Below are positions 20,601-48,586 of a stretch of 64,000 nucleotides of DNA, piece after piece; the stretch's first letter is position 1, and the number at the start of each line of letters is the position of its first letter. The DNA comes from Acidobacteriota bacterium (lineage in GTDB: Bacteria; Acidobacteriota; Terriglobia; 20CM-2-55-15). The notes under the pieces were generated by a model. It did not search any database, was not told where the DNA came from, and saw only the letters and a program-made list of their open reading frames with translations. The position numbers were made by a program, and so were the translations under genes. Location: contig JAJEEE010000025.1 of assembly GCA_022821145.1 (NCBI GenBank), positions 82,050 to 146,049 of the forward strand, written 5' to 3'.

Positions 20601-21031
20601 TGTCCGGTGCGGTAGCGTATTCTTCGGTCGCGACCGGTGTATTGGGCCCGATCGCTCCCTACGTTCTGTATACGGCCGCGCTACTCTTCCTGGCGGGACT
20701 CGCAATCCGATCGGGCGCCTGGCCGAAGGCGGCGTTGGTGGCCTCCGTGTTGGCGGTGGGTTTCGTCAGCGTTCCCGGGCCCGCGCAGGAATCGTACGCG
20801 ATCTGGATTCTCGCGGGGCTCGGAGGCGGCGCCGTGGTCTACCTTCTCGCCCGATTGGTTTCGGCGGCCCCCGTGCTGGCGCCCGGCATGGCGGCCGTGC
20901 TCATCGGCGTCGAGTCCGCGACCCGGAGCGTCGACGCGGCGTACCCGGGGGCCCGGCTCGGAGGCGTGCTGGGGGTGGTCGTCATCGCCGGCATGGCGGC
21001 GGCCTGGACGCGGGCGCTGTCGCGGAACTAA
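17690..21031 (+). CDS. Very large CPBP (CAAX/Abi-type) intramembrane protease-family protein
   Basis: The 1113-residue polytopic protein contains one signal-anchor helix; an extracytoplasmic domain (~35-230); a CPBP core (~245-560) with EESLFR (E425, E426), FAAAHANY and HFTYD motifs, the usual metal-dependent protease set; a linker rich in Pro/Ala; a second helix near 620; a second extracytoplasmic domain (~640-820) built like the first (both end with a VPE-x(4)-R segment); and about eight more C-terminal helices. CPBP proteins cleave prenylated or signal-type substrates in the membrane; typical members are 200-350 residues, so this one is far larger. Substrate unknown. The start is ATG 17690. 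It overlaps the selenoprotein gene tail-to-tail by 4 bp. Confidence 0.75.
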   Translation: MTRKPLFWILFSALGLAGFVVAVWLFPRALPIVELDIEMDQAGAVDRAAVLAVDNGWDPVEARSAATFGQLDSEVQTYVELEGGGRDAFVNLAAQDIYHPYVWTVRRFQEGAIEETVVRFTPSGRAYGFRLRLSEDDPGGGNLSDVEAITVAAAAAAEWGVDLTPYDLLESSQETQPGGRVDHTIVFERRDVDLADAAFRLRIGVAGASASELTHFVQVPEAFSQRFADMRAANDTIALASQGVFLLVFAILAAGIGTVVLMRRGWLLWRTPLAWGAVTALLLGLNQLNALPLSWIGYDTAVSAGVFLVGQFGIAAAIVLAGTPLIAFFYLAGESLGRHAFPGHPRQWRFWSSEVAASNAALGRTVAAYLLAGAQLGYVVLFYLGTSRLDGWWSPAESLVQPDLLATYQPWLLAVSNSLFAAFWEESLFRAVPIACAALIGARYGRPGAWIWITIAAQAVVFAAAHANYPQQPAYARVIELTLPALVWGVVYLYYGLIPTILAHFTYDLALFSIPLFASDAPGIGFDRAVVILVGLLPLGIVLFARRKGRARADAPDWAYNRAWTPPTTPAVAAGESISGPSVPSSAAPGERPPSRLPVPRNAVYVLGALGAAVWLYSLVSPSEAPTLDLSRTAAVQTARDALEERGAPVDGWTPLVATPSQRGDDHRYVFQEAGESAYASLLGRYLGESRWLVRFIDFRADAEERVEELQVHVGAGGEILRVRHVLPEAREGARLDEAAARELASSAVEERFGLDPGGLDEVGAEQTSRPNRGDWVFTFEDPEALPGVEGAGRVVIEVAGDGIADARRFVNVPEEWERDRRDAATRRTFIAVGLAALLVLIIGVADVMAVVALARGRIAARALLTVLPGVLAVMVLSQANAWPALAGQFVSAQPWGFQAGVVAFGIVLGAVVVAAGVALLAALGHSWHLDNRVPRAPALAAAAGFIPVGLIAAAGAFSGGFGGLPRWPDVSGAVAYSSVATGVLGPIAPYVLYTAALLFLAGLAIRSGAWPKAALVASVLAVGFVSVPGPAQESYAIWILAGLGGGAVVYLLARLVSAAPVLAPGMAAVLIGVESATRSVDAAYPGARLGGVLGVVVIAGMAAAWTRALSRN

Positions 21032-21255
21032 GCGCTCCGTTCCTGCATCGTCCGGACGATCTCGGAGTTCTCCGGGAACCGGCCGGCCTGCTTCTTAGAG
21101 AAGATCAGGTCGCCGTCCAGAACGACGTCGAAGACGCCGCCGCTGCCGCGGATCAACTCCGCTTCGATACCGAACTCATCGGCGATCGCGGCCTTCAGAC
21201 TGGAGGCCTCGGGCAGGTAGTCTCACGGGACGCAATAGGTGATCGAAACGCGCAT
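21028..21255 (-). CDS. SelW/Rdx-family selenoprotein, in-frame UGA read as selenocysteine
   Basis: The minus strand from ATG 21255 encodes 75 residues if TGA at 21225-21223 is read as Sec. The start is MRVSITYCVPU, then DYLPEASSLKAAIADE; the C-terminal half has GSGGVFDVVLDG and LIFSKKQAGRFPENSEI. This is the complete Rdx (SelT/SelW/SelH) domain with a CxxU redox motif where most relatives have CxxC. AGGAGG stands 7 nt before the ATG, and a TATCAT -10-like box is at 21283-21278. A hairpin suited to a bacterial SECIS follows the UGA, and selA lies at 46640. Coding resumes without any frame change after the UGA, against random decay. Ordinary gene calling misses this gene. A TGC-to-TGA sequencing error is the main alternative. 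Confidence 0.85.
21190..21208 (-). promoter_or_regulatory. Candidate bacterial SECIS hairpin
   Basis: On the minus strand, 14 nt after the UGA, GGCCTCC and GAAGGCC pair (six of seven positions) around the 5-nt loop AGTCT. The loop contains the G-U pair of bases typical for SelB recognition. Its distance from the UGA agrees with known bacterial SECIS elements, which lie within the coding sequence. Confidence 0.6.
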
Positions 21256-21399
21256 CGGCTGCCTCCTCTCGCGTTCCATGATACGCCCAGACGGCCGTTG
21301 CCCGGGCTTGTGTCCGCGCCGATTCCACGGTATTTTTGTGCCCTCGGATCCGGAATTCAATACGGCGGATCATCACGACACGCAGTCGGGAGGGCCCAG

Positions 21400-22287
21400 G
21401 TGAAGACTCTGACATTGTTGACGACTCTGCTCTTGCCGCTCGCCGGCGCGGCGGCGGCGCAAGATCGCGAAGCCATGCTCGAGCGCGGCGAATACCTGGT
21501 CGAGACCATCGCCGGATGCGGCAACTGCCACACGCCGCATCTGCCCGACGGTTCGCTGGATCCCGAGATGGCGCTGGCGGGCGCCTTCGTGATCGAGGAA
21601 CCGGTGTTCCGGGCATTCGCGCCCAACATCACGCCCGACGTCGAGACGGGAATCGGCGACTGGACGGAAGACGAGATCGTTCGCGCGCTGCGCGACGGGG
21701 TCCGGCCCGACGGCCGCGTGCTCGGCCCGCCCATGTCCTTCGCCTGGTACCGTGACATATCCGACACCGACGCCTACGCCATCGCGGCGTATCTGAAGAC
21801 CGTGCCCGCCATTCGCAACGAGGTCGAGCTGAGCACGTTCCAGATCCCGTTGCCCGGCTACGGGCCGCCCGTCGAAAACGTTCCCGACGTCCCGAGGGAC
21901 GACATCATCGCGTACGGCGAGTACCTGGCCGGCCCCGTCGGGCATTGCATGGACTGCCACACCACGTATGTCGCAGGCGTGATCGACATGGACCAGCTCG
22001 GGCGGGGCGGCAACGTCTATCCGCGCGTGTTCGGTTTCGAGTGGGCGACGGTGTCGGCGAACATCACGCCCCACGAGGACGGGATCGGGAACTGGACCGA
22101 CGAGGAAATCAAGCGCGCGATCACCGACGGGATCGGCCGTGAAGGACAAGAGCTGCGGCCGGCGATGCCGTTCGGCCTGTACCAGGGGATCACCGAGGAA
22201 GACCTGGACGCGATCGTGGCCTATCTCCGGTCCATACCGCCGCTGAGCGCGGCGCCCGCGCCCGTCGAGGAAGAAGAGGACGAGTAG
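21400..22287 (+). CDS. Periplasmic diheme cytochrome c
   Basis: This 295-residue protein starts at GTG 21400, with GGGAGG 7 nt upstream, and has a Sec signal (residues 1-20). Two cytochrome c domains contain CGNCH (~residue 40) and CMDCH (~187). Each is followed by a related segment (NITPDVETGIGDWTEDEIVRA and NITPHEDGIGNWTDEEIKRA share the same pattern) and a Met motif (PPMSFAWY, PAMPFGLY). This internal duplication is typical of the cytochrome subunits of membrane alcohol/aldehyde dehydrogenases. It is a plausible electron acceptor for the PQQ enzymes. It ends in an acidic tail (EEEEDE). Confidence 0.85.
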   Translation: MKTLTLLTTLLLPLAGAAAAQDREAMLERGEYLVETIAGCGNCHTPHLPDGSLDPEMALAGAFVIEEPVFRAFAPNITPDVETGIGDWTEDEIVRALRDGVRPDGRVLGPPMSFAWYRDISDTDAYAIAAYLKTVPAIRNEVELSTFQIPLPGYGPPVENVPDVPRDDIIAYGEYLAGPVGHCMDCHTTYVAGVIDMDQLGRGGNVYPRVFGFEWATVSANITPHEDGIGNWTDEEIKRAITDGIGREGQELRPAMPFGLYQGITEEDLDAIVAYLRSIPPLSAAPAPVEEEEDE

Positions 22288-44882: not shown

Positions 44883-46466
44883 TCAGTGCCTGAAGTGGCG
44901 GACGCCGGTCAGGACCATCGACATGCCGTGCTCTTCCGCGGCGGCGATCACTTCCGCGTCGTTCTTCGAGCCGCCCGGTTGAATGACGGTCCGCACGCCC
45001 GCCGCGGCGGCGGCGTCCACGCCGTCTCGGAACGGAAAGAACGCATCCGACGCCATGGCCGTTCCATTGGCCGCCCGGCCCGCCTTGTCGACGCTGATCC
45101 GGACCGCGTCGACGCGGCTCATCTGCCCGGCGCCCACGCCGCAGGTCGCCTCGCCCCGGGCCAGCACGATCGCGTTCGATTTGACGTGACGGGCGACCTT
45201 CCAGGCGAACCAAAGGTCGCGCCACTCCTCGACCGACGGCTTGCGCGCCGTCGCCAGGCGCGCGGTCCCGGATCGGATGTCGTCGGACACGTCCCGGTCC
45301 TGGATCAGGATGCCCCCCTCGACGCAGCGGACGTCCATTCCCGCCGCTCCGTCGCGGACTTCCCCGTCGGACAGCTCAAGGACGCGGAGGTTCGGCTTGC
45401 CTTCCAGCACGCGGCGGGCGTCGGCGTCCACTTCGGGCGCCACGATGCACTCGACGAATAGTTTCGCGATCTCCTCGGCCGCCGCGCCGTCCAGCGGCCG
45501 GTTCACCGCGATGATCGAACCGAACGCGGAGACCGGATCGGACGCGTAGGCCTTGCGGTAGGCGTCCAGCACGTCCCGACCCACGGCGGCGCCGCAGGGA
45601 TTGGCGTGCTTGACGATCGCCGCGGCGGGCTCCTCGAACTCGCCGACCACACCGCGGGCCGCGTCCAGGTCCATGAGATTGTTGAAAGACAACGCTTTAC
45701 CCTGGAGCTGGATGGCCGCTCCCAGGCCGTGCGGCGCCACGGAGCCCCATCGATAGAACGCCGCCTTCTGGTGGGGGTTCTCACCGTACCGGGGCTCGGC
45801 CGTCTTCTCGAAGTCCATGAATACACGGGCGGGCGGGCGCGATCCGTCCGGCAGGGCGAATCCTCCTCCGCCGAACTCGACGCCCGACAAGTATTCCGCG
45901 ATCCGGCCGTCGTACCGCGCCGTGTGGGCGAAGGCGTCCCGGGCCAACGCGAACAGGCGCTCCACCGACAACCGCCCCGCGCCCTCGCGCAACGCGTCCA
46001 ACAACGCCGGATAGTCGTCCGGGTCGGTTACCACGGCGACGTCCGTGAAGTTCTTGGCCGCCGACCGCAGCATGGCCGGCCCGCCGATGTCGATGTTCTC
46101 GATGACGTCCTCGAAGCGGACGTCCGGCTTGCGGATCGTCTCGGCGAAGGGGTACAGGTTCACGCATACCAGGTCGATGGTCCCGATTCCGTGATCCGCG
46201 ATCTGCTTGCGGTGCTCGGGATTGTCCCTGAGCGCCAGCAATCCCGCGTGTACCCGTGGGTGCAGCGTCTTGACCCGGCCGTCGAGCATCTCCGGGAAGC
46301 CGGTCATGTCGGAAACTTCGCGGGCCGGCACGCCTTCGGAGGCCAGCAGCCGCGCGGTCGATCCGGTCGACAGGATCTCGACGCCCATGTCGGCCAGCCC
46401 GCGCCCGAACTCCACGATGCCCCGCTTGTCATAAACGCTGATCAGGGCGCGTTCGACTTTCTTCAA
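44883..46466 (-). CDS. purH: Bifunctional AICAR transformylase / IMP cyclohydrolase
   Basis: The 527-residue enzyme catalyses the last two steps of IMP synthesis. The N-terminal cyclohydrolase domain shows [32 protein letters not shown] and [16 protein letters not shown]; the transformylase part shows [29 protein letters not shown] and the C-terminal [12 protein letters not shown]. The start is TTG 46466 with AAGGAG 6 nt upstream; no ATG fits the family N-terminus (a Lys-Lys-VERALIS beginning). It is divergent from selA. Confidence 0.95.
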
Positions 46467-46600
46467 TCCGGACTCCTTTCCCGCGCGGCACCGCGTTTGC
46501 AGTCGTTACGAGGACGCCGCCCGGCCGGCCGATTGTAAAACAAGCACTCCGTGGGCCGAAACGGTCCGTCGGCACGCCCGTGTCCCGTCGGCGGCGGCGG

Positions 46601-46609
46601 TGCTATGAT
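46601..46609 (+). promoter_or_regulatory. Extended -10 box (TGCTATGAT) of selA
   Basis: TATGAT with an upstream TGC lies 30 nt before the selA ATG at 46640. It should give a leader of about 25 nt. No -35 match is obvious, as is normal for extended -10 promoters. Confidence 0.45.
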
Positions 46610-46639
46610 TTCGGGAGGTCGGGTTCCGTCCCGGACGAC

Positions 46640-48010
46640 ATGAACGCCCTGCGGCAGATTCCCCCCGTTCACGAAATCCTGCGGCACGCGAAGCTGCGCG
46701 GAATGGAGCGGATCCTCGAACAGCCGTTCGCGGCGCGTATCGTGGACCAGGTGGTCGACGAGCTACGCGCCGAGTTGAGGGGCGACGCCTCGGAACGATC
46801 GCGCGTGGAGTTGGCGTCCGTCATCGCCGACGACGTTCGTCGGCGCATCGATGCGTTTCTGACGCCGTCGTTGCGGCCCCTGATCAATGCGACGGGCGTC
46901 GTGCTGCACACTAATCTGGGACGGGCGCCACTGCCGGCTTCCGCCGTCGACGGCGCACGGGACATCGCAGCCTCGTATTCGAACCTCGAGTTCGACGCCG
47001 CGTCCGGCCGGCGGGGGAAGCGGGACACCCACGTGGCCCGTTTGCTGTCGGAGTTGCTCGGATGCGAGGCGGCCATTGTCGTCAACAACAACGCGGCGGC
47101 CTTGCTGCTGGTGCTGAATACCCTGGCCGAGGGAGGCGAGGCGCTTGTATCGCGCGGCGAGGAGATCGAGATCGGCGACTCGTTCCGGATTCCGGAGGTC
47201 ATGGCGAAGAGCGGCGCGCGGATCCGCGAAGTCGGCACGACCAATCGCACGCGCATCGAGGATTACCGCTCCGCGGTCGGCCCGGAAACGCGGTTGCTGC
47301 TGCGTGTGCATCCAAGCAACTTCACGGTGGTCGGATTCACCGAACGGCCGTCGCTGGCCCAGTTCGTCGCCCTGGGCCGTGAAACGGGAGTGCCGATGCT
47401 CGAGGATCTGGGCAGCGGGTGCATCGGGGACCTGACGGCGGCCGGCCTGCCCGACGAGCCACGACCGCAGCGAAGCATCGAGTTGGGTGTCGATCTGGTC
47501 TGTTTCAGCGGCGACAAGCTTCTGGGGGGGCCGCAGGCGGGGATCGTCGCCGGACGCAAGCCGCTTGTGGAACGAGTTCGCCGCAACCCGCTGTTCCGTG
47601 CCCTGCGCGTGGACAAGCTGACGCTTGCGACATTGGAATGGGTGTTGCGGGCGCACCTTCGCGGCGACATGGCCGGCATTCCCACATGGCGCATGCTCCG
47701 CGCGACCGATTCGGAACTGAGAGAACGCGCCGAGGCCTTGACACGCCGCCTGGGGCAGGACGCCGTCGTCCCCACGGCGCTCGAGTCGGTTGTGGGCGGC
47801 GGTTCGGTCCCGGAGGGCGCGATGCCGTCCTGGGGGCTGCGCGTCACCCCGGCCGGCGCCTCCCCTCGCCGTTTGGAGCAGCAACTGCGCGAGGGCGCGC
47901 CGTCCGTGGTGGTCCGCATCGAGGACGATGCCGTCCTGCTCGACCTGAGGACGGTGTTTCCCGAAGACGACGACAAGCTTGCCGAGGCGCTGCGCGGCGC
48001 TCTTGCTTGA
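46640..48010 (+). CDS. selA: L-seryl-tRNA(Sec) selenium transferase
   Basis: The 456-residue PLP enzyme converts Ser-tRNA(Sec) to Sec-tRNA(Sec) with selenophosphate. Family marks are INATGVVLHTNLGRAPL, YSNLEFDAASGRRGKRDTHV (20 residues), EAAIVVNNNAAA, HPSNFTVVGFTERP, EDLGSGC and the PLP-Lys segment FSGDKLLGGPQAGI. Length is close to the 463 residues of E. coli SelA. selB, selC and selD are not in the window. The SelW-like gene at 21028 has an in-frame UGA, so the pathway is expected to be active. It is convergent with efp (12 bp apart). Confidence 0.95.
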   Translation: MNALRQIPPVHEILRHAKLRGMERILEQPFAARIVDQVVDELRAELRGDASERSRVELASVIADDVRRRIDAFLTPSLRPLINATGVVLHTNLGRAPLPASAVDGARDIAASYSNLEFDAASGRRGKRDTHVARLLSELLGCEAAIVVNNNAAALLLVLNTLAEGGEALVSRGEEIEIGDSFRIPEVMAKSGARIREVGTTNRTRIEDYRSAVGPETRLLLRVHPSNFTVVGFTERPSLAQFVALGRETGVPMLEDLGSGCIGDLTAAGLPDEPRPQRSIELGVDLVCFSGDKLLGGPQAGIVAGRKPLVERVRRNPLFRALRVDKLTLATLEWVLRAHLRGDMAGIPTWRMLRATDSELRERAEALTRRLGQDAVVPTALESVVGGGSVPEGAMPSWGLRVTPAGASPRRLEQQLREGAPSVVVRIEDDAVLLDLRTVFPEDDDKLAEALRGALA

Positions 48011-48022
48011 GCGCCGGCTCCG

Positions 48023-48586
48023 TCAAGTGCGAACGCGCTCGATGTACTTGCCGTCCGAGGTGTCGATGCGGATGGTTTCGCCCTCCGAGATGAAGTGCGG
48101 CACGGGCACGACGAGCCCGGTTTCGGTGCGCGCCGGCTTCTGAACGTTGCTGACCGTCGCCGACGGCATTCCCGGCTCGGTTTCCACCACCTTGAGGTCC
48201 ACCTTCGGCGGCAGCTCGATACCCACCGGTTTCCCCTCGTGGAACTCGACGCCGATCGTCGAGTTGGGCGTGAGGTATTGCATGGAATCGCCGAGCAACT
48301 CCGTCGTCAGGTGGATCTGGTCGTACGACTCCATGTCCATGAAGTAGTGGTTGCCGCCCTCGCTGTAGAGGTACTCCATCTGCTTCTTGTCCAGCACGGC
48401 CCGGTCGATGGCGTCGTCGGACCGGAATCGATGGTCGATGATGGCGCCCGTCCGCAGGTTCTTGAGCTTCGTCTGCATGTGCCCCCGCCCCTTGCCCGGG
48501 GTGAGGTGCTGATAGTCCACGACGCGGAACAGATCGTCTCCTAGCCGGATGAGGTGGCCGCGGCGCAGCATTGTCGCCTGGATCAT
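48023..48586 (-). CDS. efp: Translation elongation factor P
   Basis: The 187-residue protein has the three OB-type domains of EF-P, which rescues ribosomes stalled at polyproline. The domain I loop carrying the modified Lys is TPGKGRGHMQ. Domain III ends in SEGETIRIDTSDGKYIERV, the standard EF-P C-terminus. AGGAAGGG precedes the ATG at 48586. It lies 34 bp after the peptidase gene, in one direction with it; efp is often paired with a Xaa-Pro peptidase gene. Confidence 0.95.
   Translation of the reverse strand: MIQATMLRRGHLIRLGDDLFRVVDYQHLTPGKGRGHMQTKLKNLRTGAIIDHRFRSDDAIDRAVLDKKQMEYLYSEGGNHYFMDMESYDQIHLTTELLGDSMQYLTPNSTIGVEFHEGKPVGIELPPKVDLKVVETEPGMPSATVSNVQKPARTETGLVVPVPHFISEGETIRIDTSDGKYIERVRT

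Follow-up and report, generated by a model that had tools for sequence, protein, structure and literature searches.

SelW-like selenoproteins with a CxxU motif in the PF10262 domain have been described in bacteria by Zhang et al. 2006 (PMC1794560) and are listed in a 2026 review (PMC13188914). Unannotated SelW genes with an in-frame UGA were reported in Epsilonproteobacteria (PMC4607533), and SelW of Campylobacter jejuni (CJnc60), about 80 residues encoded across an in-frame UGA, had been missed by annotation; its full-length product was confirmed by Ribo-seq and by proteomics/mass spectrometry (PMC11955535). The gene analysed here, in a stretch of 64,000 nucleotides from an Acidobacteriota bacterium (the window), is likewise a SelW encoded across an in-frame UGA, in another group of organisms than C. 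jejuni. It has the same domain, CxxU motif, length, Sec position and downstream bSECIS as the described bacterial SelW-like selenoproteins, and differs from them in sequence divergence only, with no new domain or architecture. The description given by the first-pass annotation holds up on nearly every point. The novelty it implied was overstated, since CxxU SelW-like proteins (PF10262) are a catalogued bacterial family; the gene adds a member to selenoproteins described since the 2000s and modelled by NCBIfam. By itself it opens no new biology; a routine gene caller would leave it out or cut it short, and the present analysis corrects this one gene.

We estimate at about 96% the probability that the minus strand from 21255 to 21028 is a working SelW-like selenoprotein gene of the Rdx family, in which selenocysteine is inserted at the UGA by a bSECIS. 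The features, in window positions, are:

21262..21267, minus strand: Shine-Dalgarno AGGAGG, 6 nt upstream of the ATG (direct reading of the sequence)
21028..21255, minus strand: probable SelW-like (Rdx) selenoprotein gene, 75 aa and TAG, in-frame TGA read as selenocysteine (translation, PF10262, NF041051, TIGR02174, AlphaFold)
21223..21225, minus strand: predicted selenocysteine codon UGA, residue 11, second redox position of CVPU (TGA in 79 of 80 named homologues, TGC in 1)
21190..21208, minus strand: predicted bSECIS hairpin GGCCUCCA-GUC-UGAAGGCC, 7/8 pairs with one C-A mismatch, apical G 23 nt past the UGA (comparative evidence)
46580..48010, plus strand: selA, selenocysteine synthase (L-seryl-tRNA(Sec) selenium transferase) (TIGR00474 545 bits; PF03841 439 bits)

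With TGA read as U, the frame translates as MRVSITYCVPUDYLPEASSLKAAIADEFGIEAELIRGSGGVFDVVLDGDLIFSKKQAGRFPENSEIVRTMQERSA, followed by TAG, and the TGA at 21225-21223 is its single internal stop. A ribosome-binding site and an ATG on this strand, then a frame intact to TAG with one TGA at the second redox position, had been claimed from the sequence; the AGGAGG at 21267-21262, 6 nt ahead of the ATG, and the translation agree with it. Downstream of the UGA the GC content by codon position (0.64/0.41/0.88) has the pattern of a coding sequence, and the upstream in-frame stop is a TGA at 21372. The gene stands alone between two plus-strand genes: a CAAX-protease-like gene that ends at 21031, with a tail-to-tail overlap of 4 nt, and, on the other side, a divergent cytochrome c gene that begins near 21400. 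A scan of 20950-21450 for promoters and terminators found none.

The complete Rdx domain that had been announced is borne out by three models, all above their curated cut-offs: Pfam PF10262 (Rdx) matches residues 2-70 with 67.5 bits (cut-off 22.6), TIGR02174 scores 59.4 (cut-off 34.2), and the Campylobacter-named NF041051 (SelT/SelW/SelH family (seleno)protein) is only just passed, with 88.5 for a cut-off of 88. An AlphaFold model, obtained with 30 homologues as input and with Sec11 modelled as Cys, has a pLDDT of 95.7 and the beta-alpha-beta-beta-beta-alpha order of the SelW/Rdx thioredoxin-like fold. The CxxC/CxxU motif that follows strand 1 in such a fold is found as C8-V-P-U11, Cys8 and Sec11 lying between strand 1 (residues 3-8) and helix 1 (residues 14-28). 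The top PDB matches of the predicted fold are the SelW-related bacterial structures 2fa8, 2obk and 2ojl, with TM mostly 0.89-0.92; 2fa8 of Agrobacterium, 2obk of Pseudomonas and 3dex of Streptomyces have the same fold as the window protein (TM mostly 0.88-0.91, rmsd 1.1-1.6 A), a grouping based solely on fold and sequence. More remote matches are human MIEN1 and mouse SelW: mammalian SELENOW (2npb) and MIEN1/C17orf37 (2ljk) are of the Rdx family and share the thioredoxin-like fold, but are remote from the window protein, at 24-31% identity. In eukaryotic selenoprotein genes the SECIS lies in the 3'-UTR, and is not a coding-region bSECIS.

The conservation of the UGA was analysed in 84,980 named species genomes—a set that may omit the window's own genome—scanned on the [IV][FY]SK..RF region, remote from the TGA, which returned 80 loci; because the confirmation query carried Cys at the UGA position, this search was not biased toward TGA. 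An alignment with the Rdx/SelW families had been proposed as a check; in the homologues TGA turns out to be the rule and Cys rare: the codon aligned with the UGA is TGA in 79/80 and TGC in 1/80. The TGA homologues span Planctomycetota, Myxococcota, Acidobacteriota, Zixibacteria, Desulfobacteria and others, the closest named relatives being about 46-65% identical to the SelW-like protein over the matched segment. Within the window's own class, 22 of 299 genomes have an Rdx match interrupted by a single internal stop, which is always TGA. The association of Rdx-TGA with SelA in the class is weak (Fisher p = 0.048) because SelA is common there (217/299 genomes); the one available genome of the same genus (85% complete) has selA and no Rdx match.

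The first-pass annotation placed a hairpin 14 nt past the UGA, which stands, with an AGUCU loop, which has to be corrected: the loop proper is GUC (21200-21198), the remainder being the closing A-U pair of a stem formed by 21208-21201 with 21197-21190. The bSECIS model asks for an apical loop of 3-9 nt with a G in the first two positions, at 16-37 nt from the UGA, an MFE <= -7.5 kcal/mol and an upper stem of 4-16 bp (PMC13188914, Fig 2). The window hairpin has a loop of 3 nt with the G first, 22 nt from UGA to loop, an MFE of -8.5, and an upper stem of 7 pairs interrupted by a C-A mismatch, two pairs down from the loop, so that a bSECIS check, which had also been proposed, finds a hairpin within the published constraints and supported by covariation. 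The mismatch is a mild departure, a Lys AAG where relatives carry Glu GAG or Ala GCG; it is found also in the relative L099, most relatives being without it. Folding energy was discarded as evidence for a SECIS: with z from -1.0 to +0.4 it does not, taken alone, set the window hairpin apart from chance, which is what a GC content of 66% would lead one to expect, and comparative evidence was used instead. Scanned against Rfam at gathering score, the window gave a tRNA only and no SECIS.

The support for the hairpin comes from comparison with relatives, by which it is far beyond chance. When 89 genes are aligned gap-free from the UGA, with stem positions +15..+22 facing +26..+33, the apical position +23 is G in 89/89, and the stem pairs on average at 6.98/8 positions versus 4.87 +/- 0.11 under synonymous-codon recoding; the window has 7/8 pairs (p = 0.016). 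The apical Ser codon is AGT in 63/63 cases, versus 8/230 for the Ser codons elsewhere in the same genes. Among 44 diverse sequences, the window being excluded, covariation reaches 0.380 versus 0.160 +/- 0.017 after shuffling, a value matched by 0/500 shuffles; two-sided changes that keep the pair fill 41 cells for 12.4 expected, at 5/8 pairs, and a shift of the register by 1-3 columns lowers covariation to 0.05-0.11. A covariance model made from these 44 sequences matches 21225-21184 with 44.7 bits (E = 2e-9), a score that is not purely structural since the model includes conserved coding sequence; its next-best matches have E = 2.9 in the window and E = 0.6 in the genome. With its near-complete retention of Sec and the strict placement of its SECIS apex, the SelW-like family is a good test case for why some redox proteins keep Sec. 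The sole Cys version among the 80 close homologues, L089 (Planctomycetaceae, JAKFWA010000099.1), has TGC at the Sec codon and AGC, not AGT, as apical Ser codon, as expected once the SECIS function is lost, while 7/8 stem pairs persist.

The genome to which the window belongs (4.18 Mb, 99.3% complete) carries the genes for decoding selenocysteine. SelA had been placed 25 kb away and indeed lies about 25.3 kb from the SelW-like gene; the genome search suggested for selB, selC and selD found all three, like selA, above family cut-offs, selB with 380 bits, selD with 360 bits, and selC with 75 bits, the latter called by ARAGORN as a tRNA-SeC with anticodon TCA. These three are on contigs other than that of selA, which is flanked by an EF-P gene (48026-48586, minus strand) and a purH-like AICARFT/IMPCHase gene (44886-46466, minus strand). 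At least seven further genes with a TGA at a redox-active position were read in this genome; very probably, the source bacterium is a selenocysteine decoder with no fewer than eight proteins that contain this residue.

A single substitution separates the TGA from TGC or TGT, and a relative, L089, does carry TGC, as one would expect of a pseudogene or of a sequencing or assembly error, in which a codon for Cys, past or present, would have been turned into TGA by a nonsense change or a wrong base. We hold this highly improbable: the TGA stands at the same codon in 79 of 80 independent homologues, the frame downstream of it is intact and coding-like, a specific covarying SECIS lies 3' of the codon, and the Sec machinery is complete. 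The recurrence of TGA in these homologues and in the 22 genomes of the class excludes, for all practical purposes, that the TGA is a nonsense mutation or a misread base and, together with the covariation of the SECIS, refutes such an explanation in practice. Still less probable is a UGA read as another residue than selenocysteine, whether by untargeted readthrough or because UGA has been generally reassigned, for example to Trp. It would also account for a frame that is open only with TGA as sense, but the position aligns with Cys and never with Trp in the SelW-like family; moreover TGA acts as a normal stop at other places in the window (the one at 21372, in frame and upstream of the gene, is an example), the genome has a tRNA-Sec with anticodon TCA, and a SECIS is specific to Sec decoding.

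That selenocysteine is actually inserted in the source organism is suggested jointly by the frame, the domain, the TGA conservation, the covarying hairpin, the Sec-decoding genes and the other Sec genes. A complex of SelB, GTP and Sec-tRNA(Sec) would bind the bSECIS hairpin just 3' of the UGA, and selenocysteine would go in at residue 11, forming the redox motif Cys8-Val-Pro-Sec11 at the start of helix 1. From its fold and motif, the protein is most likely a cytosolic thiol/selenol oxidoreductase, which would alternate between a Cys-Sec selenylsulfide and the reduced form. It might instead be mainly a selenium-containing regulatory or binding protein, a view that leaves Sec insertion untouched and concerns the function only. 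Bacterial SelW-like proteins are without an established substrate, and no gene neighbourhood indicative of a pathway is shared with the window: clustering of the ORFs around the 80 homologues gave no neighbour family common with it. We nevertheless regard a non-catalytic role as rather unlikely, since Sec is kept almost universally in a CxxU motif where the helix of a thioredoxin-like fold begins, which argues for redox chemistry; the oxidoreductase remains our preferred reading.

In a poorly resolved tree of Rdx sequences (104 rows, 75 columns), the window SelW is placed with a Phycisphaeraceae sequence and a Myxococcota sequence (support 99/85), not with the Rdx-Sec genes of the taxonomic family to which its genome belongs; the Cys homologues of its class, of the RWLLRAAW type, branch as a clade of their own. 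This position would fit horizontal transfer as well as old paralogy with loss, between which the tree is too short to choose. We propose only tentatively that a Sec-encoding SelW gene, with its built-in SECIS, might spread horizontally between Sec-decoding phyla, its role strongly selecting Sec over Cys (79/80).

The further Sec genes of the genome were sought by three family searches only, so that their list is a lower bound: formate dehydrogenase-N alpha (RLUHG), PrxQ (TPGUT), a Prx (TPVUT), three UPxC Prx-like proteins and an AhpD-like protein (CHYUT), with NCBIfam matches for five of the seven. The formate dehydrogenase-N alpha gene (L155, G000:C67:3919-5376) has, besides its RLUHG, a strong SECIS, GGUGGCCAGUCUGGCCGCC, which shares a CAGUCUG apex with the window SelW hairpin. 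Six genes of the AhpC/TSA family have one internal TGA each; in L162, L163, L165, L166 and L169 it falls at the TPxUT or UPxC redox position, and the sixth (G000:C61:173594-173965) was flagged by its one TGA only. The AhpD/CMD-like fragment (L160, G000:C16:3391-3618, minus strand) reads CHYUTRAH with the TGA at the redox position, and scores 39.5 with the known (seleno)protein model NF041238, below the cut-off of 175.

Finally, two genomes of the window genome's family (G007 and G010) carry each a divergent Rdx-like gene with an in-frame TGA, L013 and L014, of the type (M)KVVIRHCxIUASYxPRAARVAALLKxELG. Both are below all NCBIfam cut-offs (46.9 and 41.8 versus 88 for NF041051) and their branch is very long (2.71); they may represent an undescribed subfamily of Rdx selenoproteins.
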